Positions 1-17,788 of a DNA stretch of 49,343 nucleotides are shown in pieces (position 1 is the first letter of the stretch; every line of letters begins with the position of its first letter). Origin of the DNA: Planctomycetota bacterium (GTDB lineage: Bacteria; Planctomycetota; Phycisphaerae; Phycisphaerales; Phycisphaeraceae); the NCBI GenBank assembly GCA_021413865.1, contig JAIOPN010000025.1:1-49343 (forward strand), given 5' to 3'. The notes beneath the pieces are model-generated. The model had not been told where the DNA came from and did no database searches. It was given only the letters and a program-made list of their open reading frames with translations. A program made the position numbers and the translations under genes.

Positions 1-72
1 TTGCTTGGTCACCATCTCCACCGCGCCGCGCTTGAACTCGTCGCTGTGCTTGCGTCGTGGTCTGCGTTCCAT
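1..72 (-). mobile_element. IS3-type transposase OrfA, N-terminal fragment cut by window edge
   Basis: Reading the minus strand from an ATG at 72-70 gives 24 codons, beginning MERRPRRKHSDEFKRGAVEM, that run off the window. The basic start followed by 'SDEFKRGAVEMV' is the pattern of the N-terminal helix-turn-helix of IS3-family OrfA transposases, which binds the element's terminal repeats. Only the first residues are visible, so whether the element is intact and where its inverted repeats lie cannot be judged. It would be transcribed away from the methylamine genes that start 244 bp to the right. Family assignment is by recognition of this short motif only. Confidence 0.6.
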
Positions 73-75
73 CGA

Positions 76-119
76 TTGGCGCCTGGGTGGCGGCTATTAT
101 GCCGCCGAGGTAGCGCCAA
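76..119. repeat. Nested inverted repeat (stem-loop) upstream of the transposase start
   Basis: TTGGCGC (76-82) pairs with GCGCCAA (113-119), and inside it GGCGGC (89-94) pairs with GCCGCC (101-106) around a TATTAT loop. The two six-base internal loops are symmetric. It sits four bases before the transposase ATG on the minus strand, so it may lie in its leader or promoter, or near the element's end. The function is inferred from position only. Confidence 0.45.
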
Positions 120-277
120 CCGTTCGTGGGGAAGACCAACCCCATTCTTAGGGAGGAGCATAAGTAAAGCTGCGCGTGTTACCGTGCATTCGAGAAAAAC
201 TATTGATCATTCGCGACCTCGATTCGGCGAATCCCGGGGCTATGCGAACGCGCACGCCTGCCGCCCCCGCGTTGCCG

Positions 278-315: not shown

Positions 316-1173
316 ATGCAAGGGCGACGCTACATCCTGACGATCTCGTGCCCGGACCGCGTGGGCATCGTGGCGGCGGTCTCGACGTTCATCGCCTCGC
401 AGAAGGGGTGGATCACCGAGGCGAGCCACCACGCCGACCCGCAATCGGGGTGGTTTTTCATGCGTCACGAGGTGCTCGCCGAGTCGCTGCCGTTTGACAT
501 CGAGGAGTTCCGCCGGCGGTTCAGGGTGATCGCCGACGAGTTCGGCATGGTGTGGCAGATCGCCGACTCGCTGGCAAAGAAGAAGGTGGCGATCCTGGTG
601 AGCAAGCAGGACCACTGCCTGTCGGACCTGCTGCACCGGTGGCGGACGGGGGAGCTGGATTTCGACCTGCGCTGCGTGGTGTCGAACCACGAGGACCTGC
701 GCTCGTTCGTGGAGTGGCACCAGGTGCCGTTCCACTGCGTGGCGATCGAGCAGACGGATCGCGACGCGGGGTTCAAACAGGTTGACGCGATCCTGGAGAA
801 GCACGGGGCGAAGACCGTCGTGCTGGCGCGGTACATGCAGATATTGCCGGGCTGGATGTGCGACAAGAGGCCGGGGGGGATCATCAACATCCACCACAGC
901 TTTCTGCCCTCGTTCGCGGGCGCCAAGCCGTATCACCAGGCGTATGAGCGCGGGGTGAAGCTGATCGGCGCGTCCTGCCACTACGTGACGCCGGAGCTCG
1001 ACGCGGGCCCGATCATCGAGCAGGACGTGATCCGCGTGGACCACGGGGACACGATCGAGGACTTGATCCGCCTGGGGCGTGACGTCGAGAAGACGGTGCT
1101 GTCGCGCGGCCTGCGGCTGCACATCCAGGACCGGGTGTTGATCCACGAGAACAAGACGGTGGTTTTCCAGTGA
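316..1173 (+). CDS. purU: Formyltetrahydrofolate deformylase PurU
   Basis: This enzyme hydrolyses 10-formyl-THF to formate and THF in the cytoplasm. The 285 residues match the usual PurU length. An N-terminal ACT domain (about residues 5-85, starting 'YILTISCPDRVGIVAAV') is followed by a formyltransferase-type hydrolase domain (about 90-280). The conserved N191, H193 ('NIHHSFLPSF') and D229 ('TPELDAGPI') form the expected catalytic set. It is the first gene of a same-strand run with the N-methylglutamate pathway, 30 bp before mgdA. In that setting it probably drains one-carbon units from THF after N-methylglutamate oxidation, releasing formate and regenerating THF, rather than serving purine synthesis; that role is inference. 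A weak GGAAA ribosome site precedes the ATG. Confidence 0.93.
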   Translation: MQGRRYILTISCPDRVGIVAAVSTFIASQKGWITEASHHADPQSGWFFMRHEVLAESLPFDIEEFRRRFRVIADEFGMVWQIADSLAKKKVAILVSKQDHCLSDLLHRWRTGELDFDLRCVVSNHEDLRSFVEWHQVPFHCVAIEQTDRDAGFKQVDAILEKHGAKTVVLARYMQILPGWMCDKRPGGIINIHHSFLPSFAGAKPYHQAYERGVKLIGASCHYVTPELDAGPIIEQDVIRVDHGDTIEDLIRLGRDVEKTVLSRGLRLHIQDRVLIHENKTVVFQ

Positions 1174-1203
1174 TGATTGTGACTCGCCGCTGAAAGGAAC
1201 GCC

Positions 1204-2445
1204 TTGCCGCTGAAGCTGCTCAAGTTCGGGTTGTCGGGCAAATACGCCGAGCCGCGGATGTTCCGCACGCCCGAGAAGATGCGGGACACCTACGACCTGG
1301 TCATCATCGGGGCGGGCGGGCACGGGCTGGCGGCGGCGTACCACCTGGCCAAAGACTACGGCATGACCAACATCGCCGTGCTCGACAAGGGGTACATCGG
1401 CGGCGGCAACACGGGGCGGAACACCGCGATCGTCCGCTCCAACTACCTCACGCCCGAGGGTGTCGAGTTCTACAAGGAATCGGTCCGGCTCTTCTCGCAG
1501 CTCTCGACGGAGCTGGACCTCAACCTTTTCTACACCGAGCGCGGGCACTTCACGCTCGCGCACTCCGACGCCTCGCTGCGGACCATGCGCTGGCGGGCCG
1601 AGGTGAACAAACACCTGGACGTGAACAGCGAGGTGATCGGGCCGCGCGAGATCTCGAAGCTGTGTCCCTATATGGACCTCTCCTGCGGCGGGCACGCGCC
1701 GGTCGTCGGGGCGCTCTGGCACCCGCCGGGGTCGATCATCCGGCACGACGCGGTGGCGTGGGGCTACGCGCGGGAGGCCTGCCGGCGCGGGGTGGAGATC
1801 TTCCAGAAGACCGCGGTGACGGGCATCGACATTGTGGACGGGCAGGTGACCGGTGTGCAGACCTCGCGCGGGCCGATCAAGGCGCGGCGGGTGCTCTCGG
1901 CCGTCGCGGGGTACACGCCCCGCATCACGAAGATGGTCGGCATCCGCACGCCGATCGTCATCCAACCGCTGCAGGCGTGTGTGACCGAGCCGCTCAAGCC
2001 GTGGCTCGACCAGATCGTCGTCTCGGCGAGCCTGCATATCTACGTGTCGCAATCCTCGCGCGGCGAGCTGGTCATGGGGGCGTCGCTCGATCCTTATGAG
2101 CTGCACTCGGAGCGCTCGACGCTGGACTTCGTGGAGGGGCTCGTCGATCACCTGCTGGACCTCTTCCCGTTCCTCGGAAACGTGAAGGTCAATCGGCAGT
2201 GGGCGGGGATGAGTGACATGACGCCGGACTACTCGCCGATCATGGGCACCACGCCGATCAAGGGCTTCTACCTCGACACCGGTTGGGGCACGTGGGGCTT
2301 TAAGGCCACGGCGGTGTGCGGGACGACGATGGCATACACCGTTGCGCAGGACGACGACCACCACCTGATCCGGCCGTTCAACCTCTCGCGCTTCGGCGAT
2401 TACACGCTGGTGGGCGAAAAGGGCGCGGCGTCGGTGGGCCACTGA
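1204..2445 (+). CDS. mgdA: N-methylglutamate dehydrogenase subunit A (sarcosine oxidase beta-like)
   Basis: An FAD-dependent DAO-family oxidoreductase of 413 residues, the size of heterotetrameric sarcosine oxidase beta (SoxB). The FAD motif is IIGAGGHG (residues 34-41), and the GNTGRNTAIVRSNY segment follows soon after, as in this family. By sequence alone it is SoxB-like. The gene order with soxD/A/G-type genes, gmaS and mgsABC makes N-methylglutamate the likelier substrate, oxidised to glutamate with transfer of the methyl carbon to THF on the large subunit. The start chosen is TTG at 1204, because GAAAGGAA lies just upstream; an in-frame ATG at 1258 would remove residues before the nucleotide fold. 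The gap to mgdB is only 24 bp. Confidence 0.85.
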   Translation: MPLKLLKFGLSGKYAEPRMFRTPEKMRDTYDLVIIGAGGHGLAAAYHLAKDYGMTNIAVLDKGYIGGGNTGRNTAIVRSNYLTPEGVEFYKESVRLFSQLSTELDLNLFYTERGHFTLAHSDASLRTMRWRAEVNKHLDVNSEVIGPREISKLCPYMDLSCGGHAPVVGALWHPPGSIIRHDAVAWGYAREACRRGVEIFQKTAVTGIDIVDGQVTGVQTSRGPIKARRVLSAVAGYTPRITKMVGIRTPIVIQPLQACVTEPLKPWLDQIVVSASLHIYVSQSSRGELVMGASLDPYELHSERSTLDFVEGLVDHLLDLFPFLGNVKVNRQWAGMSDMTPDYSPIMGTTPIKGFYLDTGWGTWGFKATAVCGTTMAYTVAQDDDHHLIRPFNLSRFGDYTLVGEKGAASVGH

Positions 2446-2469
2446 GTTGCATTGCTGAAGGTTCGCACG

Positions 2470-2757
2470 ATGAAGATCATGACCTGTCCCATCAACGGCC
2501 CGCGGCCCGTGCAGGAGTTCGTGTACGGCGGGGAATACCGGCCGATGCCCGACGAGCCGGCGGCGAGTGACGCCCAGTGGGCGGACTACATTTTCAACCG
2601 CAGCGGCGAGCCGGGGCTGAGCCGTGAGTGGTGGTACCACGCGCCCAGCGGCACGTGGTTCATCGCGGAGCGGGACAACGTGAAGGACGTGGTGTTGAAG
2701 ACCTACCTGTTCGACCGCGCCAATCCGCCCCGCGCCGGGAAGGGGGCGACGCCGTGA
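2470..2757 (+). CDS. mgdB: N-methylglutamate dehydrogenase subunit B (sarcosine oxidase delta-like)
   Basis: The small 95-residue subunit of the heterotetramer. It begins MKIMTCPINGPRP and has the family's 'EFVYGGE' and 'EWWYHAPSGTWF' blocks. In tetrameric sarcosine oxidase the delta subunit binds zinc through three Cys and one His. Here only C6 and H57 remain, the second Cys of CPxC being Asn9 and the last Cys absent, so zinc is probably not bound. The start at ATG 2470 is preferred because AAGG lies 8 bases upstream and homologues begin here; a TTG at 2452 is in frame. The stop overlaps the mgdC start (GTGA at 2754), indicating translational coupling. Confidence 0.87.
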   Translation: MKIMTCPINGPRPVQEFVYGGEYRPMPDEPAASDAQWADYIFNRSGEPGLSREWWYHAPSGTWFIAERDNVKDVVLKTYLFDRANPPRAGKGATP

Positions 2758-5663
2758 GCGAGAGCAAGCGACTGCCGCCGCAATTCGGGGAGTGGATCGA
2801 TCGCGGATCGCCGGTGCGGTTCACGTTCGAGGGGGCGGCGTGCGAGGGGTTCGCGGGGGACACGGTCTCCAGCGCACTGCACGCGGGCGGCGCGCTGATG
2901 CTCGGCCGGAGCTTCAAGTACCACCGGCCTCGTGGGGTCCACTCGCTGGCGAACCACGATGTGAACGCCATGTTCGAGGACGGCACGGACACGAATATCC
3001 GCGCCGACGTGACGGCCGTGCGCGACGGGGCGGAGTACCGCGCGGTCAACACCGTCGGCGGGCTGGCGAACGACCGGCTGCGCATCATGGACGCCTTCTC
3101 GCGCTTCCTCCCCGTGGGCTTCTACTACAAGACCTTCCACCGGCCGATGAGTTTGTTCCCGTTCTGGGAGCGGCAGCTCCGCAGCGCGGCGGGGCTCGGC
3201 AAGATCGACGGCAACCACAAGCGCAACCGCACCCCCAAGCGCTACGACTGGTGCGACGTGCTGGTGATCGGCGCGGGGCCCTCCGGCTTGTCCGCGGCGA
3301 TCGCGGCGGCGCGCGCCGGGGCGAGCGTGGTGTGCGTCGATGAAAATGCCCGACCGGGCGGCACGCTCTCTTACGCGTACGGCTCGGAACCCGCGGCGCA
3401 GGGACGGCTCGATGAGCTTCTGAAAGCCGCAGCCTCACTGCCGAACCTCTCCATCCGCTGCAACACGCTGGCGGCCGGGTATTACGCCGACCACTGGGTC
3501 GCGCTGGTGGACGGCGGCAAGATGACCAAGATGCGCACCCGCGCAGTGGTCTTCGCGCAGGGCGCGGCGGAGCAGCCCTCGGTCTTCCGCCACAACGACC
3601 TGCCCGGCGTGATGCTCGCCTCCGGGGCGCAGCGGCTGCTGCGGCGCTACTCGGTCAGGCCGTTCGAGTCCCCGCTGGTTGTGACCGCCAACGCGGACGG
3701 CTACCGCGCGGCGCTGGACTTCGCCTCCATCGGCATCCACGTCGCGGGAATCGTGGACCTGCGACCCGACGGCGAGCCCTCCGACCTCGACGAGCGCGTG
3801 AAAGCGGCGCACATCACGATCCACCACGGCCAAGCGGTGTACGAGGCCGTCCCGCGTGACGGGCTGGTCGGCATTAAGGCGGCGGTGGTCTGCCCGCTGG
3901 ATAAGCAGGGCGAACTGGACACAGACGATGGGCTCACCATCGCTTGTGACGGAATCGCGATGAGCGTCGGCTGGGCCGGGGCGGACGGGCTGCTCTACCA
4001 GGCGGGCGGGCGGATGAAATATTCGGACGAGTTCGAGCAGTTCGTCCCCGAGACAATGCCCGCGGGAGTCTTCGCGGCAGGCCGGGTGAACGGTGTCTTC
4101 GCGCTGGACCAAAAACTGATCGACGGCGAGCGGGCCGGTCTCTCGGCGGCGAAATATCTGGGCCTGTCGTCACCCTCCACGCTCCCCGAGGCGCGACGCG
4201 GCCCGCGCTCCACGCACCCCTATCCGATCTTCTATCACCCCAAGGGCAAGGCGTTCATCGACCTGGATGAGGACGTGCAGTTGAAGGACCTGGTCAACGC
4301 CGAGACCGAGGGCTTCGACAACATCGAGTTGCTCAAGCGCTACACGACGTTCGGCATGGGCCCGTCCCAAGGCAAGATCGCCAACGCCAACACGGTGCGC
4401 GTGCTGGCGAGGCTGCGCAAGCAATCCGTTGGCGAAACGGGCGTGCCGACCTCACGCCCCTTCTGGCACCCGGTGCGGATGGACGCGCTGGCCGGCCGCG
4501 GCTTCCACCCCCACCGCCACACGCCGATGCACAGCTTCCATGAATCCCACGGCGCGGTCTTCATGCTCGCGGGGGATTGGCAGCGGCCCGCCTACTACGC
4601 ACGGCCGGGGCGGTCGCGCGAGGAGTGCATCACCACCGAGGTCGAGGCCGTGCGCCACCAGGTCGGCATGATCGACGTCGGCACGCTGGGCAAGATTGAA
4701 ATCTCCGGCCCCGACGCGGGCGCGTTCCTCGAACGCATCTACACCGGCAGGTTCACGAACCTCAAGGTCGGCTCGACGCGCTACGCGCTGATGTGCGACG
4801 AATCGGGCGTGGTGATCGACGACGGCGTCGTCGCGCGGCTGGGCGAAGACCGTTTCTATGCCACGACGACGACCAGCGCCGCCGCCAGCGTTTACCGCGA
4901 GATGCAGCGCTACGCCATCGTGTGGGGCATGAACCTCACGCTGGTGAATGCGACGGGCTTGTACGGCGGGATGAACCTGGCCGGGCCGTTTGCACGACGG
5001 GTGCTCCAGCCGCTGACGGACATCGACGCCTCCGAGACGGCCTTCCCCTACATGGGTATGCGCGAAGGGACATTGGCGGACGTTCCGGCACGGTTCTTGC
5101 GTGTGGGGTTCGTCGGCGAGCTCGGTTACGAGGTGCATGTGCCCGCAAATTGTGCAAAGCACGCCTGGGATGCGCTGGTGTCGGCCGGCGGCGCGTTCGG
5201 CATCCGGCCGTTCGGCGTCGAGGCGCAGCGCGTCCTGCGGCTGGAGAAGGGGCACGCCATCGTCTCGCAGGACACGGACGGCCTGACCAACCCGTTCGAG
5301 GCGGGGATGGAGTGGGCGATCAAGGACGATAAACCGTTTTTCATCGGGCAGCGCAGCCTGCGGATCATTAAGAAGCGGCCGATCGCGCGGCGGCTCGTCG
5401 CCTTCTCGCTCGGTGCCGGTTATCACGGCAACATGCCCAAGGAATGCCACCTCGTCATCGACCACGGCAAGATCATCGGGCGCGTCACGTCGATCGCGAT
5501 AAGCCCGACGCTGCACGAACCGATCGGTTTGGCGTTCATGCCCGCGGAGAAGGCGGCGGTGGGCACGCCGTTCTCGATCCGCATCGATGATGGCGAGATG
5601 GTGGCCGCGCGTGTGGTGAAGGCGCCGTTCTACGACCCGCACGCGGCACGGCAGAAGATGTGA
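2754..5663 (+). CDS. mgdC: N-methylglutamate dehydrogenase subunit C (sarcosine oxidase alpha-like)
   Basis: The large subunit, 969 residues, typical of SoxA-type alpha subunits. Domains in order are an N-terminal ferredoxin-like (Fer2_4) fold (about 15-105), a nucleotide-binding oxidoreductase domain with GAGPSG at 173-178, and a long C-terminal aminomethyltransferase (GcvT-like) region (about 590-965) that binds tetrahydrofolate and receives the one-carbon unit. The start is GTG at 2754, overlapping the mgdB stop; the reading frame is open further upstream, but that part overlaps mgdB and does not resemble the family. Its stop overlaps the region before mgdD. In this operon it should couple oxidation of N-methylglutamate to formation of 5,10-methylene-THF. 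Assignment to Mgd rather than Sox rests on the neighbouring gmaS and mgsABC. Confidence 0.88.
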   Translation: MSESKRLPPQFGEWIDRGSPVRFTFEGAACEGFAGDTVSSALHAGGALMLGRSFKYHRPRGVHSLANHDVNAMFEDGTDTNIRADVTAVRDGAEYRAVNTVGGLANDRLRIMDAFSRFLPVGFYYKTFHRPMSLFPFWERQLRSAAGLGKIDGNHKRNRTPKRYDWCDVLVIGAGPSGLSAAIAAARAGASVVCVDENARPGGTLSYAYGSEPAAQGRLDELLKAAASLPNLSIRCNTLAAGYYADHWVALVDGGKMTKMRTRAVVFAQGAAEQPSVFRHNDLPGVMLASGAQRLLRRYSVRPFESPLVVTANADGYRAALDFASIGIHVAGIVDLRPDGEPSDLDERVKAAHITIHHGQAVYEAVPRDGLVGIKAAVVCPLDKQGELDTDDGLTIACDGIAMSVGWAGADGLLYQAGGRMKYSDEFEQFVPETMPAGVFAAGRVNGVFALDQKLIDGERAGLSAAKYLGLSSPSTLPEARRGPRSTHPYPIFYHPKGKAFIDLDEDVQLKDLVNAETEGFDNIELLKRYTTFGMGPSQGKIANANTVRVLARLRKQSVGETGVPTSRPFWHPVRMDALAGRGFHPHRHTPMHSFHESHGAVFMLAGDWQRPAYYARPGRSREECITTEVEAVRHQVGMIDVGTLGKIEISGPDAGAFLERIYTGRFTNLKVGSTRYALMCDESGVVIDDGVVARLGEDRFYATTTTSAAASVYREMQRYAIVWGMNLTLVNATGLYGGMNLAGPFARRVLQPLTDIDASETAFPYMGMREGTLADVPARFLRVGFVGELGYEVHVPANCAKHAWDALVSAGGAFGIRPFGVEAQRVLRLEKGHAIVSQDTDGLTNPFEAGMEWAIKDDKPFFIGQRSLRIIKKRPIARRLVAFSLGAGYHGNMPKECHLVIDHGKIIGRVTSIAISPTLHEPIGLAFMPAEKAAVGTPFSIRIDDGEMVAARVVKAPFYDPHAARQKM

Positions 5664-5692
5664 CGGTTTGGCGGACGTATGGAGACGCGTAT

Positions 5693-6379
5693 ATGACGAT
5701 GCTGCACCTGCCCCACCGCCGCGGCCCCATCCATGGGTTGCTGGAGTCGCACCACCACCCGGCGTGGCGCGACTTGGCGGGCATGCCGATCGCGCTGCAC
5801 CTGGGCGATCCGGCCGTCGAATCGCAGACGGCGAAAAAAGGGGCGTTGTGCGACGTGTCGGCGCTGCCCCGCGTCACCCTGAAAGGCCCGGGGGCGCTGT
5901 GGTTGCTGGGGGAACAGGGCATCGCCATGCCCGACACCATTTACGGAGCGACGCCGCTCGGCTCCGCGGGTGTTGCGGCACGCACGGGGTCGGCGGAGTT
6001 CTTCCTCGAGGACGGGCCGGCGGGCAACGACGTGGCACGCCTCCGCGCGATCACCGGTGCGTTCGGCCACGCGCGGCCGGGCGTCCACCCCGTCAACCGC
6101 GCCGACGCGTCGTTCCTGCTCTCGGGAACGGGGGCGATTGACGTGCTCGAACAGACCTGCGGGTATAGCTTCCGCGAGCGCGATCCGGGCACGATGGTCT
6201 TCACGCGCATCGCGGGCGTCTCCTGCTCCATCCTGCCGCGCACGCTCAACAGCATCGACCTGTTCCAACTCTGGCTGGACGGGACGTACGGCGAATACCT
6301 GTGGGAGACGCTGCTGGATGTTCTGAGCGCGTCCGAAGGCGGCGCGGTGGGGGCGGCGTGTTATTTCCCCGATCTCTAA
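5693..6379 (+). CDS. mgdD: N-methylglutamate dehydrogenase subunit D (sarcosine oxidase gamma-like)
   Basis: A 228-residue SoxG-like subunit with a weak resemblance to the GcvT fold ('RADASFLLSGTGAIDVLEQTC', 'GVSCSILPRTLNSIDLF...GTYGEYLWETLLD'). SoxG subunits close the tetramer but carry no known cofactor. The frame is open from a GTG at 5660 that overlaps the mgdC stop. I prefer ATG 5693 because a GGAG lies about 10 bases upstream and the protein then begins MTMLHLPHRRGPIHGLLE, like relatives. After the stop, 93 bp containing a short CCGCT/AGCGG palindrome separate it from gmaS. Confidence 0.82.
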   Translation: MTMLHLPHRRGPIHGLLESHHHPAWRDLAGMPIALHLGDPAVESQTAKKGALCDVSALPRVTLKGPGALWLLGEQGIAMPDTIYGATPLGSAGVAARTGSAEFFLEDGPAGNDVARLRAITGAFGHARPGVHPVNRADASFLLSGTGAIDVLEQTCGYSFRERDPGTMVFTRIAGVSCSILPRTLNSIDLFQLWLDGTYGEYLWETLLDVLSASEGGAVGAACYFPDL

Positions 6380-6403
6380 GTAAAGAGGGCCCCTCCGAGG
6401 CGC

Positions 6404-6414
6404 CCGCTAAGCGG
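6404..6414. repeat. Short palindrome between mgdD and gmaS
   Basis: CCGCT-A-AGCGG, with a run of six T residues about 11 bases downstream. It shares the core CGCTAAGC with repeats near 11085, 32915 and 48490. It could be a weak attenuator, but the stem is short and the T-run is not adjacent. Confidence 0.35.
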
Positions 6415-6472
6415 TGGGAAAGAGTCTTTTTTCGGTCATTTTGATTTGTTCCGAAAACCCAGGAGATGAGAC

Positions 6473-7834
6473 ATGGCCCGCACCCGGACGGCACAGGAGG
6501 TCGAGGTCCAGAACGCCAAGGCGTTCCTGGAGAAGAACAACGTGAAGTTCGTGCTGGCGCAGATCGTGGACATCCACGGCGTCGCCAAAGCCAAGGCGGT
6601 GCCCGCCAGCCACTTCGAGGACATCCTCAATGACGGCGCGGGCTTCGCCGGCTTCGCGCTCTGGGGCATCGGGCAGGAGCCGCACGATCCGGACTACATG
6701 GCCGTGGGCGACATCGGCACGCTGCACCTCGTGCCTTACCAGCCGGGCTTCGCACGCATCGTCTGCAACGGGACGGTCAAGCGCAAGCCTTGGCACTTCG
6801 ACACGCGGTACATCCTCAAGAAGCAGCTCGACCGGCTGGCGGAAAAGGGCTGGACGTTCAACACCGGCCTGGAGCCCGAGTTCATGCTCCTGGCGCGCAC
6901 GGCCGAGGGGAAGATCGCGCCGGCGGATTCATCCGACGTGCTCGACAAACCCTGCTACGACTACAAGGGGCTCTCCCGCTCCAGCGCATTCATCGAGAAG
7001 CTCGTCGATTCACTGCTCGCGGTCGGCATCGACGTTTATCAGGTCGATCACGAGGATGCTAACGGCCAGTTCGAGATCAACTTCACCTATTCCGACGGCC
7101 TGACCACCGCGGACCGCCTGGTCTTCTTCCGCATGGCCGCCGGCGAGATCGCCCGCTCCCTCGGGCTGGTCTGCACCTTCATGCCCAAGCCCATGTCCAA
7201 CCGCACCGGCTCGGGCATGCACATGCACATCTCCATCACGGACAAGAAGGGGAAGAACCTCTTCAACGACGATTCGGACAAGAACGGCCTGGGCCTGTCG
7301 AAGATGGCGTACCACTTCCTCGGCGGTCTCTTGAAACACGCCCGGGCGCTGGCGGCGCTCTGCGCCCCGTGCGTGAACTCCTACAAGCGGCTGGTCGTCG
7401 GCCGATCTCTCTCGGGTGCGACCTGGGCGCCGGCGTTCATCAGCTACGGCGACAACAACCGCACCAGCATGGTCCGCGTCCCCTACGGCCGGCTGGAGCT
7501 ACGCCTCTGCGACTCGGCGGCGAATCCCTACCTCGCCACCGCCGCCGCCATCGCCGCGGGGCTCGACGGCATCGAACACAAGCTCGACCCGGGCGACCCG
7601 CACAATTTCAACCACTACACGACCCCCGAGGAAGACCTGCGGAAAATGGGCATCGGCGTGCTGCCGCAGAGCCTGCACGAGGCCCTCGCCGCGCTGGAGG
7701 CCGATCCGCTCTTCGCCAAGACGCTCGGCGAGCCGTTCATCAAGGAGTTCATCAGGCTCAAGCAGATGGAGTGGGTGGAGTACCACCGGCACGTGAGCGA
7801 TTGGGAGGTCGAACGGTACCTGGAGTTTTATTGA
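6473..7834 (+). CDS. gmaS: Gamma-glutamylmethylamide synthetase (glutamine synthetase III/GlnT-like)
   Basis: ATP-dependent ligation of methylamine to glutamate, the entry step of the N-methylglutamate pathway. The 453-residue protein has the glutamine synthetase fold: an N-terminal beta-grasp region (about 15-110, '[21 protein letters not shown]') and a catalytic domain with the metal-binding 'GLEPEFML', '[10 protein letters not shown]', 'GSGMHMHIS' and C-terminal '[26 protein letters not shown]' segments. It is of the GlnT/GlnA-III type that includes GmaS rather than housekeeping GlnA. An AGGAGA lies 7 bases before the ATG. Specificity for methylamine over ammonium is inferred from the flanking mgd and mgs genes; a plain glutamine synthetase cannot be excluded by sequence alone. 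Confidence 0.85.
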
Positions 7835-7840
7835 TCTGAT

Positions 7841-7979
7841 TCCCTCTCACCCCGGGAGAGGGTGGCGGCGTCTTCGCCGACGGGTGAGGGGACTAACGGC
7901 CGGATGGGTTTTCCGGATTGTCGCGACCCCACCAGCCGGTGATCCCCTCACCCCGCCCTCTCCCGGAGGGAGAGGGGGC
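7841..7979. repeat. Pair of inverted palindromic repeats between gmaS and mgsA
   Basis: The left unit (7841-7892) contains CCCTCTC/GAGAGGG (7842-7848 with 7856-7862) and ends GGGTGAGGGGA. The right unit (7943-7979) begins with its inverse TCCCCTCACCC and carries a perfect 9-bp stem CCCTCTCCC/GGGAGAGGG (7956-7964 with 7968-7976, GGA loop). Such 'CCCTCACCC...CCTCTCCC' elements are dispersed repeats in several GC-rich genomes. The same-strand frame reading through it gives 'SPRPLPEGEGAR', a known translation of this repeat and not part of MgsA. It may attenuate transcription between the two halves of the operon. Confidence 0.75.
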
Positions 7980-8049
7980 AAGAAAGCACCGCCCGCCCCG
8001 CTATCATGACCGTCCACGCCGTGTGAAATCGTTCTCGGGAGAATCGCCC

Positions 8050-8946
8050 ATGTGCGGCATCGTCGGACTGCTGATCAAGAAACCCGCGCAGCGCAAGGAA
8101 CTGGGCCGATTGCTGCTGCCCATGTTCACCTGCATGGCCGACCGCGGACCGGACTCCGCCGGACTTGCGGTTTATGGCACACCGGTGGCGCAGGGGTTAC
8201 GCAGGTTCAACCTCTTCGTCCCCGATCGCCAGTTCAACTGGAAAAAGCTCGCGGACCGCTTCCGCGACCAGACCGGCGCGACGGTCGAATTGACCGCGGT
8301 CGAGAACCACGCGGTGTTCGTTTCCGATGTTGCCCCGGGGGCAATGCGTGCGTGGCTGGCGGAGTGCGACCCGACGCCGCACCTGCTCTCGGTCGGCCGG
8401 TCGATCGACATCTATAAAGATGAGGGCCACCCGACCGAGATCGCCAAACGGTACGGCTTCGCGGAGCTGAGCGGCAGCCACTCGATCGCCCACACGCGGA
8501 TGGCGACGGAGTCGGCGGTGTCGCCCGCGCATGCGCACCCGTTCACGGCTGGCGAGGACTTCTGCCTCGTCCATAACGGATCGCTCTCAAACCCGTATCA
8601 ATTACGGCGGATGCTCGAGCGGCGCGGGATGCGTTTCGAGACCGACAACGACACCGAGGCGGCGTGCCGGTTCATCGAGTGGCGTCTGGCGCAGGGCGAG
8701 CCGCTCAACGCGGCCCTGCACACCGCCTTCGCCGAGTTGGATGGGTTCTACACGCTCCTGATCGCCACCGGCGACTCGATGACGCTGGTGCGCGACGCGT
8801 TTGCCTGCAAGCCTGCTGTGGTCGCGGAGACGGATGAATACGTCGCCATCGCCAGCGAGTTCCGCAGCCTGGCGCACCTGCCGGGGGTGAAGTCGGCGAA
8901 CATCTTCGAGCCGCTCCCCGAGGAGATCTACTCGTGGCAAGCCTGA
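8050..8946 (+). CDS. mgsA: N-methylglutamate synthase subunit A (class II glutamine amidotransferase domain)
   Basis: 298 residues with an N-terminal nucleophile Cys2 immediately after the initiator Met (MCGIVGLLI), 'MADRGPDSAGLA', 'HTRMATESAVSPAHAHPF' and 'VHNGSLSNP', all marks of a Ntn-type glutaminase domain like GlxB and the N-terminal part of glutamate synthase. In N-methylglutamate synthase this subunit hydrolyses gamma-glutamylmethylamide and channels methylamine to the synthase subunit. The start at ATG 8050 is fixed by the need for Cys2 and by GGGAGA just upstream; the open frame extends left only through repeat DNA. The gene end overlaps mgsB by 13 bases. Confidence 0.87.
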   Translation: MCGIVGLLIKKPAQRKELGRLLLPMFTCMADRGPDSAGLAVYGTPVAQGLRRFNLFVPDRQFNWKKLADRFRDQTGATVELTAVENHAVFVSDVAPGAMRAWLAECDPTPHLLSVGRSIDIYKDEGHPTEIAKRYGFAELSGSHSIAHTRMATESAVSPAHAHPFTAGEDFCLVHNGSLSNPYQLRRMLERRGMRFETDNDTEAACRFIEWRLAQGEPLNAALHTAFAELDGFYTLLIATGDSMTLVRDAFACKPAVVAETDEYVAIASEFRSLAHLPGVKSANIFEPLPEEIYSWQA

Positions 8947-9650
8947 CACGCTCTCGTGAGAAACAACAGCAGGTCGTCCGGCTCGACCAGGAGAAGCTCT
9001 CGGTCCGCGAGATCAATGAGTATCTCCATCACCGGGTCCGGGACGGGGCGCGCGTCGAGATCGCCAATCCCGACGGGCAGCACAACCTGGCCGTTGGGCT
9101 GGACGCGGACATCGACGTGGACATCCTGGGCCACGCGGGCTACTACATCGCCGGCATGAACAAACGCGCCCGCGTCACCATCCACGGCTCGGTCGGCTGG
9201 TCCGTCGGCGAGAACATCATGTCCGGCTCCGTCCGCGTGAAGGGCAACGCCTCCGAGTGCGCGGCCGCCAGCGGGCACGGCGGTCTCGTCGTCGTCGAGG
9301 GTGACGCCTCCTCGCGCTGCGGCATCTCGATGAAGGGGGTCGATATCGTCGTGGGCGGGTCGGTCGGGCACGTCTCGGCGTTCATGGCGCAGGCGGGCAC
9401 GCTGGTCGTCTGCGGCGACGCGGGGCCGGCGCTGGGTGATTCGCTCTACGAGGCGGTGATCTACGTACGCGGGAAGGTGCACTCGCTCGGGGCCGACGCG
9501 CGTGAGGAGGCGCTGGGCAAAACCGACCACGCGAAGTTGACGGACCTGCTGGGCAAGGCGGGGATCGATCTCAACCCCAAAGATTTCAAGCGCATCGCCT
9601 CGGCGCGGAAGCTGTACCACTGGAACTCGGACCACCAGGACGATTATTGA
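8934..9650 (+). CDS. mgsB: N-methylglutamate synthase subunit B (GltB C-terminal/GXGXG domain)
   Basis: 238 residues forming the right-handed beta-helix GXGXG domain found at the C-terminus of glutamate synthase and in GlxC. The repeats can be seen as 'ILGHAGYYIAGMN', 'IHGSVGWSVGENIMSGSVRVKGNASECAAASGHGG' and 'GGSVGHVSAFMAQAGTLVVCGDAG'. It is a structural partner of the MgsA glutaminase and MgsC synthase subunits. The start is GTG 8934, inside the end of mgsA, with GGAG about 10 bases upstream, so translation is coupled. 34 bp separate it from mgsC. Confidence 0.86.
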   Translation: MASLTRSREKQQQVVRLDQEKLSVREINEYLHHRVRDGARVEIANPDGQHNLAVGLDADIDVDILGHAGYYIAGMNKRARVTIHGSVGWSVGENIMSGSVRVKGNASECAAASGHGGLVVVEGDASSRCGISMKGVDIVVGGSVGHVSAFMAQAGTLVVCGDAGPALGDSLYEAVIYVRGKVHSLGADAREEALGKTDHAKLTDLLGKAGIDLNPKDFKRIASARKLYHWNSDHQDDY

Positions 9651-9684
9651 TCCCGGCCGAAGCGACTCACGCAGGTTTTTCGAC

Positions 9685-11055
9685 ATGGCAAAACAAAAGC
9701 CCAGGACCGTTCCGTTGCAGGTCTCCACGGAGGAGAGCTACTCGTACAACCGGCACGTGCTGGAGTACATCCACCAGGCCGCCGAGCGCGGGCTGTACGA
9801 CATCCGCGGGCTGGGCGCCAAGCGGAAGATGCCGACGTTCGACGACCTTGTGTTCCTCACCGCCTCGCTCTCGCGTTACCCGCTGGAGGGCTACCGCGAG
9901 AAGTGTGTCACGAAAACGGTGCTGGGCACGCGGTTCGCCAAGAAGCCGATCGAGCTGAAGATCCCGATCATGGTGGCGGGGATGAGCTTCGGCGCGCTCT
10001 CGGGCCGGGCGAAAGAGGCGATCGGCCGGGCGGCGACGGCGCTGGGCACCTCGACGACGACCGGCGACGGTGGGATGACGGCCGAAGAGCGCGAGTCCTC
10101 CAAGACGCTCATCTACCAGTGCCTGCCCTCTCGCTACGGCTTCAACCCCGACGACCTGCGCAAGGCGGACGCCATCGAGGTCGTGATCGGCCAGGGCGCG
10201 AAACCCGGCGGCGGCGGCATGTTGCTGGGGCAGAAAATCTCCGCCCGAGTCGCCAGGATGCGCACGCTCCCCGAGGGCATCGACCAGCGCTCGGCGTGCC
10301 GGCATCCGGACTGGACCGGGCCCGACGACCTGACCATCAAGATCAACGAGCTGCGCGAGATCACCGGCTGGCGCGTGCCGATCTTCATCAAGTTCGGTGC
10401 GACGCGGGTGAAGAACGACGTGAAACTCGCGGTCAAGGCCGGCGCCGACGTGATCGTGATCGACGGCATGCAGGGGGGCACGGCGGCGACGCAGCAGGTC
10501 TTCATCGAGCACGCCGGCATCCCCACAATCGCGGCCGTGCGCCAGGCGGTGGACGCCCTGGAAGAGATGGACATGGTCGGCAAGGTGCAGCTCATCATTT
10601 CGGGCGGCATCCGCACCGGCGCGGACGTCGCCAAGGCGATCGCCCTGGGCGCCGACGCGGTCGCCATCGGCCAGGGCGTGCTCATGGCCCTGGGCTGCAA
10701 CGGCAGCTACGCCCTTGATGGCAAAAAACACAGGGATGTCACGAAGGACTACCTCGCCCTGGGCGTCCGGCCCGGCACGTGCCACCACTGCCACACCGGC
10801 AAGTGCCCCGTTGGCGTCACCACGCAGAACGACGACCTGGCGCTCCGCCTCGACCCGGCCGAGGGGGCGCACCGGCTGAAAAACTACTTCAACGTCCTCT
10901 CCATGGAGCTGGCCACGCTCGCTCGCGCCTGTGGCAAGTCGAACGTGCACCACATGGAGCCCGAGGACCTGGTCGCGCTGACCGTCGAGGCGGCGGCCAT
11001 GGCGCGCGTGCCGCTGGCGGGGACGAATTGGATACCGGGGTTGGGCGGCAAGTAG
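9685..11055 (+). CDS. mgsC: N-methylglutamate synthase subunit C (FMN, Fe-S glutamate synthase domain)
   Basis: 456 residues matching the FMN-binding TIM-barrel of glutamate synthase (GlxD-like). It shows 'GMSFGALSGRAKEAIGRA' (99-116), 'GQGAKPGGGGMLLGQKI', 'VIVIDGMQGGTAATQ' and 'ISGGIRTGADVAKAIALGADAVAIG', then the Fe-S cysteines C366, C369 and C374 in CHHCHTGKCPVGVTTQ. It adds methylamine, released by MgsA, to 2-oxoglutarate and reduces the product to N-methylglutamate. The enzyme family usually takes electrons from ferredoxin or NAD(P)H; the donor here is not visible. This is the last gene of the NMG set; a small hairpin-like repeat follows the stop. Confidence 0.87.
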   Translation: MAKQKPRTVPLQVSTEESYSYNRHVLEYIHQAAERGLYDIRGLGAKRKMPTFDDLVFLTASLSRYPLEGYREKCVTKTVLGTRFAKKPIELKIPIMVAGMSFGALSGRAKEAIGRAATALGTSTTTGDGGMTAEERESSKTLIYQCLPSRYGFNPDDLRKADAIEVVIGQGAKPGGGGMLLGQKISARVARMRTLPEGIDQRSACRHPDWTGPDDLTIKINELREITGWRVPIFIKFGATRVKNDVKLAVKAGADVIVIDGMQGGTAATQQVFIEHAGIPTIAAVRQAVDALEEMDMVGKVQLIISGGIRTGADVAKAIALGADAVAIGQGVLMALGCNGSYALDGKKHRDVTKDYLALGVRPGTCHHCHTGKCPVGVTTQNDDLALRLDPAEGAHRLKNYFNVLSMELATLARACGKSNVHHMEPEDLVALTVEAAAMARVPLAGTNWIPGLGGK

Positions 11056-11069
11056 GCGAAGCAAACGCG

Positions 11070-11088
11070 TCGCTGCGCGACAGCCGCT
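11070..11088. repeat. Direct repeat copy 1 (TCGCTGCGCGACAGCCGCT)
   Basis: This 19-base sequence lies just after mgsC and recurs identically at 11427-11445. It contains a GCTG/CAGC mini-stem with a CGCGA loop. The position after a stop codon suggests a dispersed 3'-end repeat, possibly affecting termination. Confidence 0.65.
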
Positions 11089-11132
11089 AAGCAGGGAAAC
11101 GTCTGCGCCACGCCCCGTGTTATCCTGCACGC

Positions 11133-11447
11133 ATGCATTTCAGTGACGGCCGGGCGCTGCCCCGGCTACTCATTTTCATCGTGCACCTGGGCGTCACGCT
11201 GTCGCTGGGAGCCGCGATGATGCTGCACGAATCGCCCGAACCGCCGCTCTGGATCGAGCTGTCGTGGGAGGCGTTGACGTTCCCGCTGGGGACGCTGATC
11301 GAACCGGCTCGCAACGCGCTGGCGGACGTTCGGTTCGCGGGGCTGCTGGCGGCGATCCTGCTCCTGGTGGGGAACAGTTTGATATGGGCGTCGGTGATCG
11401 TGTGGGCGGTTGGGCGCGCAAGAGCATCGCTGCGCGACAGCCGCTGA
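11133..11447 (+). CDS. Small two-helix membrane protein, unknown function
   Basis: 104 residues. Two hydrophobic segments are visible, about 9-31 ('LPRLLIFIVHLGVTLSLGAAMML') and 69-92 ('GLLAAILLLVGNSLIWASVIVWAVG'), with an acidic loop between them ('HESPEPPLWIELSWEALTFPL'). No family recognised. There is no clear ribosome site before the ATG, though TATCCT about 10 bases upstream could be a -10 for a nearly leaderless transcript. The last residues, 'ASLRDSR', are encoded by the second copy of the 19-base repeat, so the natural end may have been shorter. It faces the beta-helix gene tail to tail, 8 bp away. Confidence 0.55.
   Translation: MHFSDGRALPRLLIFIVHLGVTLSLGAAMMLHESPEPPLWIELSWEALTFPLGTLIEPARNALADVRFAGLLAAILLLVGNSLIWASVIVWAVGRARASLRDSR
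11427..11445. repeat. Direct repeat copy 2, overlapping a gene 3' end
   Basis: Identical over 19 bases to 11070-11088, with similar flanks (GCTAAGCAGGG versus GCTGAGCGGGG). It supplies the final codons of the small membrane protein gene. Confidence 0.65.
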
Positions 11448-11455
11448 GCGGGGCA

Positions 11456-13462
11456 TCAATCCACCGTCGTGCGGTATTCGTCGCGGTACAGGCCGATCTT
11501 CTCGAACGGGATCGGTTGAAAACCGGTCCTGAGTGCCGGGGCGTCGGGGCGGAGGGCGAAGCCCGCCTTCTCCGGGTGTTTCTCGTCAACAAATCCCGGC
11601 TGGCCGGTCCAGTTATCGCGGTCGGCGACCGCTGTGCCGTCAGAGGTCCACCCGTGCTTGATGCCCACGCCGCTCACGAACAGGTTGCGTTCGACCGGGT
11701 TGTTCTCCGGCGGCACGCCCTTGCCGGCGGCGAGGTACTTGTCGAGGGTCTTCAACTGCGGGAAGCGTACGGAATAGGGCGGTTCGTGGTGCTTCACGTC
11801 CATCAACCGATCCTTCATGAAGCCGTTCACCATGTTCTGCCAGACCGGTGCGGGCGAGACGCCGCGGTTGTCCACGTGGACGGCGAAGCCGGCGTTGATG
11901 TAGATGTTGTTGTCGATGACGCAGTCGCGCCCGCCGCCCAGCAGCGTGCCGATCTGCGTGTTGACGATAATGTTGCCGATCACGCTGATGCCGCTCACGC
12001 AGTCGTCGAGATAGACGGCCATGGCGCCCAGGTGGCCCGGGCCGTTGATGTCGTGCATGTAGTTGTGGCGGATGACGTTGCCCTGGAAGCTCCAGTCGCG
12101 GCCGGTGTAGATCGCCCCGACGTCGCCGGTCTCGTGGCATGTGTGGTGGATGTGGTTGAACTCCATCAGGTGGTCGTTGCCCGAGAAGAGGATGGCGCAG
12201 TGCGGGTGGTCGTGGATGAGATTGTGGGTCACGCGCGTGCCCACGCCGGTCATGATGACGGCCGGGTAGTAGCAGCGCGACCAGCGTGCCTGGTGGTGGA
12301 AGCGGCAGTTGTCCACGAAGTGGTGGCACGGGATAAGGGTCTTGTGGTCGCCGCCGGTGAGGCTGACGCCGCCATCCCCGGTGTTGTAGATGTCGCAGGA
12401 CTGCACGCCGTGGTGCGTGCCGCCCTCGACCCAGACGCCGTAGTTACCGGTGTTGCGGATGGTGCAGCCGGCGATGAGTCCGTGTGAGCCCTCCTTGATG
12501 GTGACGGCGTGGCCGCGCGTGCATTCGAGCGTGACCCCCTGCAATATGACGTGCGACACGCCATCCATCGAGACCATCGGCGTGTCGAGCAGCGAGAGCG
12601 TCACCTCCGCCTTTGAGGGATCGGAGGGGGGCCAGAAGTAGAGCAGGCCGCGCTGACGGTCCACGTAGTATTCACCGGGAGAATCGAGCTCTTCGAGAAC
12701 ATTGAGGAAGTAGATGCGCTGGCCGGTGTGGATGCCGTAGAGCGCGTGCGGTGGGTCGGTCTTGACGAAGCCGGCCTCCTTGTCGATGGAGGCGATGCGC
12801 TCGTAGCTGTTGGCCCAGTCGTAGGCCCAGTAGCCGTGGACCCAGATGTCGTCGTCTTCTTTCCAGCGGCGCGGGCGGAGGCTGTCGTAGAAGAAGCCGC
12901 CCTCAATGGGGCCCATCTTCGTGCCGTGGCCGTCATCCTTGCCGGTGCCGCGCGGGAAGTCGGTGATGCGGATGAACTCGCCGGTGTTGGGCCAGCGGGC
13001 GAGGGTCATGGGCTCGGCATTGAAAAACAATTCGATATGCGAGGGCACGATCTTCCGGCTGAAGCCACGCGACTGCATCGCGCCCAGTTCCCCGACGCCG
13101 ACGGATTTGAGGTCTGCCTGCACGACGTTGTCGCGCGCGGCGGGCTGAAGGCGGGCAAGCACGTCGGCGTCGGTGACCCTCGTGAATTGCGGGATCACGC
13201 GGCCACCGATGAAGCGGGGCTGCTCCCCCACCGCCGCGCGATAGACGATCGGGCTCCCCGCCGTGCCGGAGTCCTCGGCGGTCAGTTCGAAGGTGTGGTC
13301 GCGGTGGTAAACCCCGCCGTGGATCACCACGACCCCCCCGCCGCTTGTTTTGCGGCGGCGCAGCTCGTCGCGCGCACGCTCGGGGGTGGCGAAGGGTTTG
13401 TCGGCGGTGCCGGGGTTGGCGTCGCTGCCGCGTGAGGAGACGTGGAGTTCGGTCGTGGTCAT
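11456..13462 (-). CDS. Right-handed parallel beta-helix protein, polysaccharide-lyase/epimerase-like
   Basis: 668 residues. The N-terminus 'ELHVSSRGSDANPGTADKPFATPERARDEL' is the typical entry of DUF1565/pectate-lyase-like beta-helix proteins. From about residue 290 to 520 there are stacked coils such as 'GVSHVILQGVTLECTRGHAVTIKEGSHGLIAGCTIRNTGNYGVWVEGG' and 'NLIHDHPHCAILFSGNDHLMEFNHIHHT'. Proteins of this fold bind or cleave polyuronides and other glycans; no specific catalytic residues can be assigned. No signal peptide is visible at ATG 13462, and the short upstream extension of the frame does not add one. It is last in a minus-strand run with PhyH, glycosidase-like, sulfatase and rhamnose isomerase genes, which suggests glycan processing. 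Confidence 0.8.
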   Translation of the reverse strand: MTTTELHVSSRGSDANPGTADKPFATPERARDELRRRKTSGGGVVVIHGGVYHRDHTFELTAEDSGTAGSPIVYRAAVGEQPRFIGGRVIPQFTRVTDADVLARLQPAARDNVVQADLKSVGVGELGAMQSRGFSRKIVPSHIELFFNAEPMTLARWPNTGEFIRITDFPRGTGKDDGHGTKMGPIEGGFFYDSLRPRRWKEDDDIWVHGYWAYDWANSYERIASIDKEAGFVKTDPPHALYGIHTGQRIYFLNVLEELDSPGEYYVDRQRGLLYFWPPSDPSKAEVTLSLLDTPMVSMDGVSHVILQGVTLECTRGHAVTIKEGSHGLIAGCTIRNTGNYGVWVEGGTHHGVQSCDIYNTGDGGVSLTGGDHKTLIPCHHFVDNCRFHHQARWSRCYYPAVIMTGVGTRVTHNLIHDHPHCAILFSGNDHLMEFNHIHHTCHETGDVGAIYTGRDWSFQGNVIRHNYMHDINGPGHLGAMAVYLDDCVSGISVIGNIIVNTQIGTLLGGGRDCVIDNNIYINAGFAVHVDNRGVSPAPVWQNMVNGFMKDRLMDVKHHEPPYSVRFPQLKTLDKYLAAGKGVPPENNPVERNLFVSGVGIKHGWTSDGTAVADRDNWTGQPGFVDEKHPEKAGFALRPDAPALRTGFQPIPFEKIGLYRDEYRTTVD

Positions 13463-13556: not shown

Positions 13557-14369
13557 TCATTTCGCCGCGACGGCTTCCTTCTCCGCGTCGCGTTTCTTTT
13601 GCGCGGCCTCGCGGCTCTTGCCCCAGCGGTCGTACCAGTCGATCAATTCGGGCGTGGGGGCGAAATCATGGATCGTGACGCGCTTTCGATCCGGGAGGTA
13701 GTTTCCGATGTGCCAGCCGTTGGGGTGGTAGAGCATGAAATCGCCCGCGTCCATCGAGGCGCGGATGCAGTGCGGCATGGCCTGCGTGTACTCGAGGCAG
13801 CTCCGCTCGCGTTGGAGGTAGCCGTCCTTCTCGTCGCAGGTCTTGGCGGTAGAGGCCTTCGTCTCGCCATCCAGGTCGAACTGCCGCAGGTAGCTGCCGG
13901 GGACGTACCACGTGCAGTTGTCCTCGTAGAGCGGGCAGTTGATCTGGTTGAACCAGAGCGGGTCGGTGGTGATGCGGCGGAACTCCTCGACGTCGGGCAC
14001 CTCGTGCGTCTCGCGGATGTCGCGGTGCCAGGCGGTGCACCAGGGCAACTCGGCGGGTTCGAGGAGCAGGCCGCACTGATACGAGTCGCCCTTCCCGAGT
14101 TTGTGCCGCGGCGTGAGGATTTTGGAGATGGCATCGACGAGCGGCGCGAGGTTGGCGTAATCCGCAAAGGGCTTGGGGTCGATGTCGTAGCTGCTCAACG
14201 GTTGGAGCCGCTGCGCCTGCTGGCCGCTTTTCTTGCGGGCCTGCTCCTGCGCCGTGGCGGTAGCGTGACGGAGGTCGCGGACCAGCGAGACGGGCAGGAC
14301 CTGCCGGAAGATCACGTACCCCTCGGTGCGGTAGCGGTGGATCATCGAGTCGCAGAACTTGAAGGCCAT
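13557..14369 (-). CDS. Phytanoyl-CoA dioxygenase (PhyH) family protein 1
   Basis: A 270-residue Fe(II)/2-oxoglutarate oxygenase of the PhyH type. The expected iron ligands are seen: H115 and D117 in 'AWHRDIRE', and a distal His near 220 in 'YHPNGWHIGN', with Arg for 2-oxoglutarate binding in the following 'LPDRKRVT'. The fold start 'IHRYRTEGYVIFRQVLP' is typical. The substrate is unknown; in planctomycetes these proteins are many and often lie beside sulfatases and sugar enzymes. The C-terminus is a charged helix ('REAAQKKRDAEKEAVAAK'). A GGAGA sits 9 bases before the ATG. It follows the glycosidase-like gene by 42 bp in the same operon. Confidence 0.87.
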   Translation of the reverse strand: MAFKFCDSMIHRYRTEGYVIFRQVLPVSLVRDLRHATATAQEQARKKSGQQAQRLQPLSSYDIDPKPFADYANLAPLVDAISKILTPRHKLGKGDSYQCGLLLEPAELPWCTAWHRDIRETHEVPDVEEFRRITTDPLWFNQINCPLYEDNCTWYVPGSYLRQFDLDGETKASTAKTCDEKDGYLQRERSCLEYTQAMPHCIRASMDAGDFMLYHPNGWHIGNYLPDRKRVTIHDFAPTPELIDWYDRWGKSREAAQKKRDAEKEAVAAK

Positions 14370-14411
14370 GGCGGTGTCTCCGGGGGAGTGAAAGCCGGGC
14401 TAATAGCCTAC

Positions 14412-16867: not shown

Positions 16868-16900
16868 GTTCGCGCTTGGTCCCGCGGGTCCCCTGCCGGC

Positions 16901-17788
16901 TCAGCCGCCCAATCCGGTGGTCGCCTTGCCCGCGCCCTCGTCGGCGTGGACGCCGGTGAAACCCGGCATCAGGTTGGGCTCGCGCTTGAAGGGCTCGTGG
17001 GGCCAGACGATGGCGCGGCGCTGGGGGGTGAGCCGTTGGAGGAGCTCGGGCGTGGGCCTGTAGCCGTGGCGGAAGAAGCCCCACGACGGGCCGTAGCGAT
17101 AAACGCAGACGCGCCGCTGGCCGGGGTTGATGCGCTTGGCCGAGCCGTGGCACATGGCGTCGGAGAAGATCAGGGCGTCGCCCGCCATCATGAAGACCTC
17201 GATCGCCCCCTCACAATCATCGCCCGAGGCGCCGCCGGCCTTCATGGAGTAGTTGGCGATGTCGGGGTGGCGAAAGTTCTGTTTGTGGCTGCCGGGGATG
17301 ATCATGGTGCCGCCGTCGCCCGGGCCTATGTCGGTCAGGGCGGTGATGACGTTGACCTGACAGCACATGAACTCGCCGTTGAGGACGCGGTATTGGTTGC
17401 GCTTGATGCGCTCGTTGCCGCCCGAGTGCAGGCCGATCGCCTCGCCGGGGCCTCGGAAATTGACGAAGTTTTCGTCGATGAACATCGGGCCGTGCTTGGC
17501 GTCGAAACCGGTCTCGCCGCCGAGGAACTTGCGGACCTTGTCGTACCAGGAGGGGTGGTCGATCAGGCGCTCGAAGGGCTCGCCGGCCTCGTATATCTGC
17601 TGGTAGCTCGTGCCGTCACGCGTGCCGTAGGTGTGCCCGTGCAACGCGCCGTACCACTCGCCGGGCTTGAAGGGCGGGATGGCGTCGAGCGTGTCGTTGC
17701 ACGCCCTGACCTCGTCGGCGCTCAGAGCGCCGCGCACGATGATGTAGCCGCGCAGATCAAAGAAGTATATGTCGCGTTCCGTGACCAT
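16901..17788 (-). CDS. PhyH family protein 2 with HSG in place of the HxD iron motif
   Basis: 295 residues with a clear PhyH fold: 'YFFDLRGYIIVRGALSADEV', then 'VNVITALTDIGPGDGGTMIIPGSHKQNF' and 'DALIFSDAMCHGSAKRINPGQRR', with distal His near 214 and Arg near 225. The first ligand motif reads H121-S122-G123 ('GLHSGGNER'), so the carboxylate ligand of the 2-His-1-Asp triad is missing at its usual place. In Fe/2OG halogenases the same residue is Gly or Ala; many uncultured-lineage PhyH proteins also carry 'HxGG', so the meaning is open. It is the gene before the sulfatase in the operon, with GGAG 11 bases before the ATG. Confidence 0.85.
   Translation of the reverse strand: MVTERDIYFFDLRGYIIVRGALSADEVRACNDTLDAIPPFKPGEWYGALHGHTYGTRDGTSYQQIYEAGEPFERLIDHPSWYDKVRKFLGGETGFDAKHGPMFIDENFVNFRGPGEAIGLHSGGNERIKRNQYRVLNGEFMCCQVNVITALTDIGPGDGGTMIIPGSHKQNFRHPDIANYSMKAGGASGDDCEGAIEVFMMAGDALIFSDAMCHGSAKRINPGQRRVCVYRYGPSWGFFRHGYRPTPELLQRLTPQRRAIVWPHEPFKREPNLMPGFTGVHADEGAGKATTGLGG

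Follow-up and report, generated by a model that had tools for sequence, protein, structure and literature searches.

A purU-led gene cluster predicted to encode a complete N-methylglutamate pathway, with a gmaS of separate ancestry, in a member of the Planctomycetota

Here, we describe a cluster of nine genes in a 49,343-nucleotide contig of a Planctomycetota bacterium from the family Phycisphaeraceae (JAIOPN010000025.1, assembly GCA_021413865.1; the whole contig, C20 of the genome, is called the window below). Judged from its sequence, the cluster very probably encodes a complete N-methylglutamate (NMG) pathway, the indirect route of methylamine use. The genes stand in the order purU-mgdABCD-gmaS-mgsABC on the forward strand at positions 316-11055, as nine intact reading frames with no internal stop. 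The junctions between them measure -13 to +93 bp, apart from 215 bp between gmaS and mgsA, and since the third-position GC across the frames is 0.84-0.94 they can be regarded as real genes. This arrangement had been recognized at the same span in the initial annotation, and its list of components, a sarcosine-oxidase-like tetramer, a GmaS, a Cys2 amidotransferase, a GXGXG protein and a flavin mononucleotide (FMN)/Fe-S synthase, is borne out by family matches and residues, for MgdD by alignment only. The complete pathway that it had proposed stands as well, because in trees and residues GmaS is not a glutamine synthetase, MgsC is not GltB, and MgdA and MgdC lie apart from sarcosine oxidase. What is unusual is mainly the host, which belongs to a group seldom noted for this pathway, together with the mixed ancestry of gmaS; the gene set and its order are otherwise ordinary.

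The product of gmaS (6473-7834; forward strand, as all genes of the operon) matches the gamma-glutamylmethylamide synthetase model TIGR03105 at 665 bits, above the cut-off of 470. The protein is of the type III glutamine-synthetase-like kind; its score is 671 bits against 9qur (deposited as 'Glutamate--methylamine ligase'), compared with 331 bits against the Rhodovulum enzyme RhGmaS (7cql) and about 250 bits against true glutamine synthetases. In the alignment, K41, A59, Y162, Q190, D192, E194, E201, N203 and W318 of the window protein correspond to K30, A48, Y147, Q175, D177, E179, E186, N188 and W300 of RhGmaS, the residues given for the methylamine pocket in the consulted part of PMC7948447; the RhGmaS numbering assumes that chain 7cql is offset by 20 residues, as four landmark residues suggest. 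At the A48 position the aligned archaeal and bacterial glutamine synthetases have an Asp and window GmaS has an Ala. The methylamine pocket is kept, and the ammonia-binding Asp and the flap Glu of glutamine synthetase are gone. A plain glutamine synthetase was ruled out by the pocket residues, by the Ala at the A48 position and by the difference between the scores against 9qur and against glutamine synthetases. Over 83 GmaS rows, which include the window and omit one row (L119_1412, from a Pelagibacteraceae record), the pocket shows K in 82 (one gap), Q in 77, and A, Y, D, both E, N and W in all 83; L119_1412 has V at the A48 position. The Pelagibacteraceae record holds two adjoining gmaS-mgsABC-like sets (L119:1412-6010 and 8421-12652), one of which is distant (GmaS 29%, MgsC 52%, Val at the A48 position).

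The three-subunit synthase, made of a Cys2 amidotransferase, a GXGXG subunit and an FMN/Fe-S subunit, is complete in the window. MgsA (8050-8946; GATase_6, 63 bits) is a glutamine amidotransferase that starts with Met-Cys-Gly-Ile, and its catalytic Cys2 is kept in 86 of 87 aligned rows, the remaining row having a gap. The gene of MgsB (8934-9650, GTG start) encodes the GXGXG subunit (PF01493, 43 bits). MgsC (9685-11055), a glutamate-synthase FMN domain that stands as a protein of its own, matches the Glu_synthase family PF01645 at 324 bits; among 94 rows, its Cys 366, 369 and 374 are kept in 84, 84 and 88. GltB, a plain glutamate synthase, was ruled out as the identity of MgsC by the tree, in which starred branches separate MgsC from three GltB pieces. 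A different NMG-synthase-like set, with an MgsC followed by a second MgsC-like protein, was seen at L036:7749-12134 (genome G078) and also in L037, L038, L164 and L165. The first copy in L036 shares 44% with window MgsC and keeps the Cys cluster, and the second shares 26% and is missing the cluster together with a portion of the FMN region, so that the tandem resembles a synthase paired with a degenerate subunit. In L036 and L164 gmaS adjoins this set.

Family knowledge and the consulted parts of PMC5023235 and PMC7948447 suggest how these proteins may act together; the reactions, the flux and a use of methylamine as nitrogen rather than carbon source are what we infer from them. GmaS would join methylamine and glutamate to gamma-glutamylmethylamide at the expense of ATP. 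From this amide MgsABC would release methylamine through the glutaminase-type Cys2 of MgsA, and N-methylglutamate would be built on the FMN/Fe-S subunit MgsC. MgdABCD would convert N-methylglutamate to glutamate and place the methyl carbon onto tetrahydrofolate (H4F) as 5,10-methylene-H4F, with the methylamine nitrogen passing into the glutamate/ammonium pool. FolD would turn methylene-H4F into 10-formyl-H4F, and PurU would then free formate, to be oxidized by formate dehydrogenase or excreted. Deletion mutants of Methyloversatilis universalis FAM5 that lack mgsC or mgdD no longer grow on methylamine, according to the searched part of PMC5023235.

The genes for this carbon branch are present. 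PurU, a formyltetrahydrofolate deformylase (316-1173), reaches 350 bits against TIGR00655 (cut-off 286) and 136 bits against Formyl_trans_N, with an ACT match of 22.4 bits that lies below Pfam's 27, and it is the only PurU above the family cut-off in the whole genome. In the PurU tree it falls into a 13-row clade (100/99) in which 11 other members, like the window's, lead NMG clusters; the remaining one, L071, lies 4 kb downstream of mgsC. A FolD is encoded on contig C33 (PF02882 at 200 bits, above the cut-off; best NCBIfam FolD model at 404 bits, below its own cut-off) and a formate dehydrogenase alpha subunit on C27 (841 bits, cut-off 666); a second alpha-subunit match, on C55, is nearer to the assimilatory nitrate reductase model. 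Thus, the genome encodes a path from methylene-H4F via formate to CO2. For Gram-positive methylamine users, PurU has been interpreted in this way too in the part of PMC5023230 consulted. Furthermore, annotated records repeatedly show folD and purU next to NMG genes, and on plasmids of Rhizobium lentis and Paracoccus sp. MA both stand beside gmaS/mgs/sox-like genes, with dimethylamine-monooxygenase genes adjoining. Venting of the C1 unit as formate, as assumed in the initial annotation, is plausible with this sole PurU; however, the genome encodes a formate dehydrogenase as well, which makes oxidation to CO2 no less likely. An assimilatory nitrate reductase-like molybdoenzyme (G000:C55:17210-19309, L139; NasC model at 765 bits, below cut-off) is a second nitrogen route of the host.

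The dehydrogenase shares its subunit architecture with heterotetrameric sarcosine oxidase (1vrq, 2gag), but the similarity is weak. MgdA (1204-2445, TTG start; DAO, 223 bits) is the beta-like flavin adenine dinucleotide (FAD) subunit and MgdB (2452-2757, TTG start with an alternative ATG at 2470; SoxD in Pfam, 92 bits) the delta-like subunit. The alpha-like MgdC (2754-5663, GTG start) combines 2Fe-2S, FAD/NAD and folate-binding domains (Fer2_4, SO_alpha_A3; GCV_T at 254 bits). The gamma-like MgdD (5660-6379, GTG start) was assigned by alignment to the same-place genes of other loci, at 29-41% identity in 32 of the 98 loci with any match. MgdA, MgdB and MgdC match the NCBIfam models of sarcosine oxidase beta, delta and alpha at 462, 57 and 828 bits, all below the curated cut-offs of TIGR01373, TIGR01374 and TIGR01372 (529, 116.5 and 1164), and so fall outside the sarcosine oxidase families. 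Against the alpha subunit in 1vrq, window MgdC scores 397 bits, compared with 795 for a Tistrella plasmid protein with sarcosine-oxidase neighbors and 659 for a Phaeobacter protein. In the MgdA+MgdC tree the window belongs to a clade of 30 rows (100), most of them from linked NMG clusters and one from a Methyloversatilis metagenome-assembled genome (MAG), and seven sox-like rows are split off from the window side by starred branches. MgdABCD is therefore related to NMG-linked proteins and not to those of sarcosine oxidase, with MgdD placed by alignment only.

It is very improbable that these four genes form a heterotetrameric sarcosine oxidase, next to which gmaS and mgs stand by chance and serve some other amide or glutamate role. 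The SoxB/D/A family matches and the distant homology of MgdC to the solved alpha subunit would fit such an enzyme, but all three matches miss the curated cut-offs, the Tistrella SoxA-type protein is far closer to 1vrq than the window, the tree separates the window from the sox-like rows at 100, and the same neighbors recur in at least 23 of the 80 named loci that were surveyed for gene order (the best 80 of at least 593 matches). Some observations nevertheless weigh against a complete NMG pathway. In the library scan no NCBIfam or Pfam model matched MgdD, which is to be expected because MgdD is described as surprisingly divergent in M. universalis FAM5 (searched part of PMC5023235). The sox-like rows L126, L127 and L130, and L128 as a fourth in the MgdC tree, adjoin gmaS/mgs genes; since alphaproteobacterial gmaS-linked MgdC rows thus branch on the sox-like side, a gmaS-linked Mgd alone is no proof. 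A simple linkage rule is also contradicted by L122 from Paracoccus versutus, which lies inside the NMG-side clade and has no gmaS visible within 9 kb. Finally, the genome contains two Fae genes, and if free formaldehyde were made, the C1 unit could also enter a tetrahydromethanopterin (H4MPT) route. The same two genes fit C1 assimilation, that is a methylotrophy on nitrogen and carbon in which the C1 unit is assimilated by a serine or H4MPT-linked route and PurU is a side valve. However, PurU is irreversible and leads the operon, and we consider this form of methylotrophy doubtful.

The order of the genes in this NMG operon, which had been thought possibly undescribed, is not novel. In those at least 23 loci mgdA, mgdC, gmaS, mgsA and mgsC follow each other as in the window on one strand, and in at least 10 of the 23 purU stands ahead of mgdA (one is cut by a contig edge); because loci are often cut by contig ends, both counts out of 80 are lower bounds. 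The identical order purU-mgdABCD-gmaS-mgsABC is found on the annotated plasmid mpAca1.1 of Acidithiobacillus caldus ATCC 51756 (NZ_CP005987.1), where mgdD is unannotated and was recognized by alignment. Its GmaS and MgsC are 66% and 74% identical to those of the window, and transposases lie near the plasmid operon too. Unlike the window operon, which has no folD beside it, the plasmid-borne one is followed by folD and preceded by an XRE regulator. M. universalis FAM5 has the same eight pathway genes, with an MgdD that is likewise divergent, but there the locus numbers run gmaS-mgsABC-mgdABCD and purU was not seen in the text searched (PMC5023235). The neighborhood check in other Planctomycetota, which had been recommended, revealed NMG clusters in planctomycete MAG loci (L041-L044, L073, L090) and in genomes of the host phylum (G031, G011, G612). 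They carry the same pathway, and some of their MgsABC and MgdA/C are near the window's; however, they are mostly ordered mgsABC-gmaS-mgd, and their GmaS is 45-51% identical to the window's and forms a separate clade. Among seven planctomycete-titled loci, gmaS follows mgsC in six; L069 has the window's order without purU, and its proteins group with proteobacterial rows. The view that the pathway occurs mainly in Proteobacteria proved too narrow: NMG genes are known in Mycobacterium and Binatota, as stated in the consulted parts of PMC5023230 and PMC8262859, and the loci collected here also come from Cyanobacteria, Actinomycetota, an Acidobacteriota and a Spirochaetota record.

The trees indicate that gmaS has a different history from its neighbors. 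They were built from 45 rows for MgsABC (from 'quick' searches), 46 for GmaS and 42 for MgdA+MgdC, other rows being dropped, and all groups used in the approximately unbiased (AU) tests were named after the trees had been seen. In the GmaS tree 12 rows (planctomycete records and same-phylum genomes, 12 of 12) form one clade (100), and the window with G017, a genome of the same family, falls into the other, 25-row clade (99) together with Terriglobia, Spirochaetia, gamma- and betaproteobacteria and cyanobacteria. Holding the window and G017 with the 12 rows was rejected (p 0.003; L161 and L163, which lie outside the planctomycete clade, were left out), and a single clade of the window, G017, G031 and G011 gave p 0.0001. 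In the concatenated MgsABC tree the window joins G031 and L044 (95) and then G017 (82), within a 12-row group of planctomycetes, Terriglobia and Spirochaetia (99). Neither planctomycete monophyly of MgsABC (p 0.558) nor a grouping of the window and G017 with Terriglobia and Spirochaetia (p 0.198) was rejected, the latter leaving room for one operon history shared with both. In the MgdA+MgdC tree an inner 8-row group (97) places the window with Rubrobacteraceae, Terriglobia, Spirochaetia and four host-phylum genomes. Since MgsABC and MgdA/C lie near planctomycete copies and GmaS lies outside the planctomycete clade, the history of gmaS probably changed either in the lineage of the window or in the other planctomycetes. 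Another mosaic NMG cluster is that of G011, of the same family, whose MgsABC falls among alpha- and gammaproteobacterial rows, yet whose GmaS and MgdA/C are of planctomycete type; exchange thus happens inside the host family.

A recent acquisition of the whole operon from a beta- or gammaproteobacterium appears unlikely. It would account for the same purU-led order in loci that are nearly all proteobacterial, for a GmaS outside the planctomycete clade, for a PurU whose sister, with weak support (80/73), is Halochromatium, and for the insertion sequence that adjoins the operon. Against it, MgsABC and MgdA/C group as described, and placing window MgsABC with the 20 proteobacterial and cyanobacterial rows was 42 log units worse, a borderline result (p 0.049; together with G017 39 log units worse and equally borderline, p 0.058). 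The GC of the operon (0.65-0.68) is level with that of the remaining contig (0.64-0.68), and the comparison gave no compositional sign of transfer. Tentatively, one may instead picture a cassette that was passed among phyla and reassembled, with a synthase and dehydrogenase of the planctomycete/Terriglobia/Spirochaetia kind but with a gmaS and a leading purU of other origin, beside an insertion sequence present in several copies; planctomycetes of this kind might supply their neighbors with ammonium and formate made from methylamine.

Within the phylum the NMG genes are scattered. A close MgsC copy (at least 660 bits) occurs in 4 of 51 genomes of the host family (the own genome, G017, G031 and G011), with the distant tandem type in two more. 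An even draw over the phylum gave MgsC in 8 of 392 genomes, four at 770 bits or more and four more distant, and a draw over the class in 1 of 397, the own genome only; both draws scored four candidates per genome and may miss distant copies. G612, a single 7.83-Mb contig, has a complete mgsABC-gmaS-mgdABCD cluster. The suggestion that the planctomycete setting is undescribed may hold for the literature, though not for the public records: no report of planctomycete NMG genes was found in open-access literature, and the consulted parts of PMC7065363 and PMC8262859 report none, which is weak evidence of absence, but planctomycete MAGs and G612 carry the genes. Methylamine occurs widely as a nitrogen and C1 compound, and the organisms that use it are traced with gmaS as a marker gene (PMC7948447, part consulted). 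Surveys or assignments that take NMG genes to be proteobacterial would overlook planctomycete-like copies or assign them wrongly, and since two GmaS types occur in one family, gmaS alone does not track the host. A planctomycete host is suggested by the GmaS clade that same-family and same-phylum genomes share with named planctomycete records, by the two Fae genes and by gene content; for SBP_bac_10 there was one match of 24.4 bits, confined to the N-terminal motif.

The insertion sequence ends 177 bp before purU. The window contains one end of it (1-138, minus strand). Its terminal inverted repeat of 19 bp lies at 120-138, and 24 codons from the start of the transposase gene run leftwards from 72 until the contig end cuts them; this 24-residue start alone matched no Pfam model. 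Positions 1-138 are identical to three other contig ends (four in all), two of which part from the window sequence immediately behind 138, the point at which the third contig, C18, begins. The C18 copy has the 19-bp repeat twice, at 1-19 and in inverted orientation at 885-903. Its HTH_Tnp_1 and rve domains lie in two frames, and from these domains we take the element to be of IS3 type. At a weak repeat match on C10 (L146) there is no transposase of this kind. The window contains a single copy of the 19-bp repeat, so no second copy flanks the operon on the right, and a composite transposon is ruled out for that side. The element is a mobile element beside the operon and not proof that the operon was moved by it.

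The genome comprises 4.37 Mb in 67 contigs (95.2% complete, 3.0% contaminated), and the view of the operon's surroundings ends at base 1 of the window. Elsewhere on the contig lie gyrA, gyrB, a type II secretion/pilus cluster and the end of lepA; its GyrA shares 77% identity with that of G017 and 74% with that of G007, both same-family genomes, and hence the contig is chromosomal. The 215-bp gap between gmaS and mgsA (7835-8049) contains a spurious reading, VIPSPRPLPEGEGA, which presumably resembles a common intergenic repeat. Between the operon and gyrA, at 13557-21117, there are three phytanoyl-CoA dioxygenase-type genes, a sulfatase and a sugar-isomerase-like gene.

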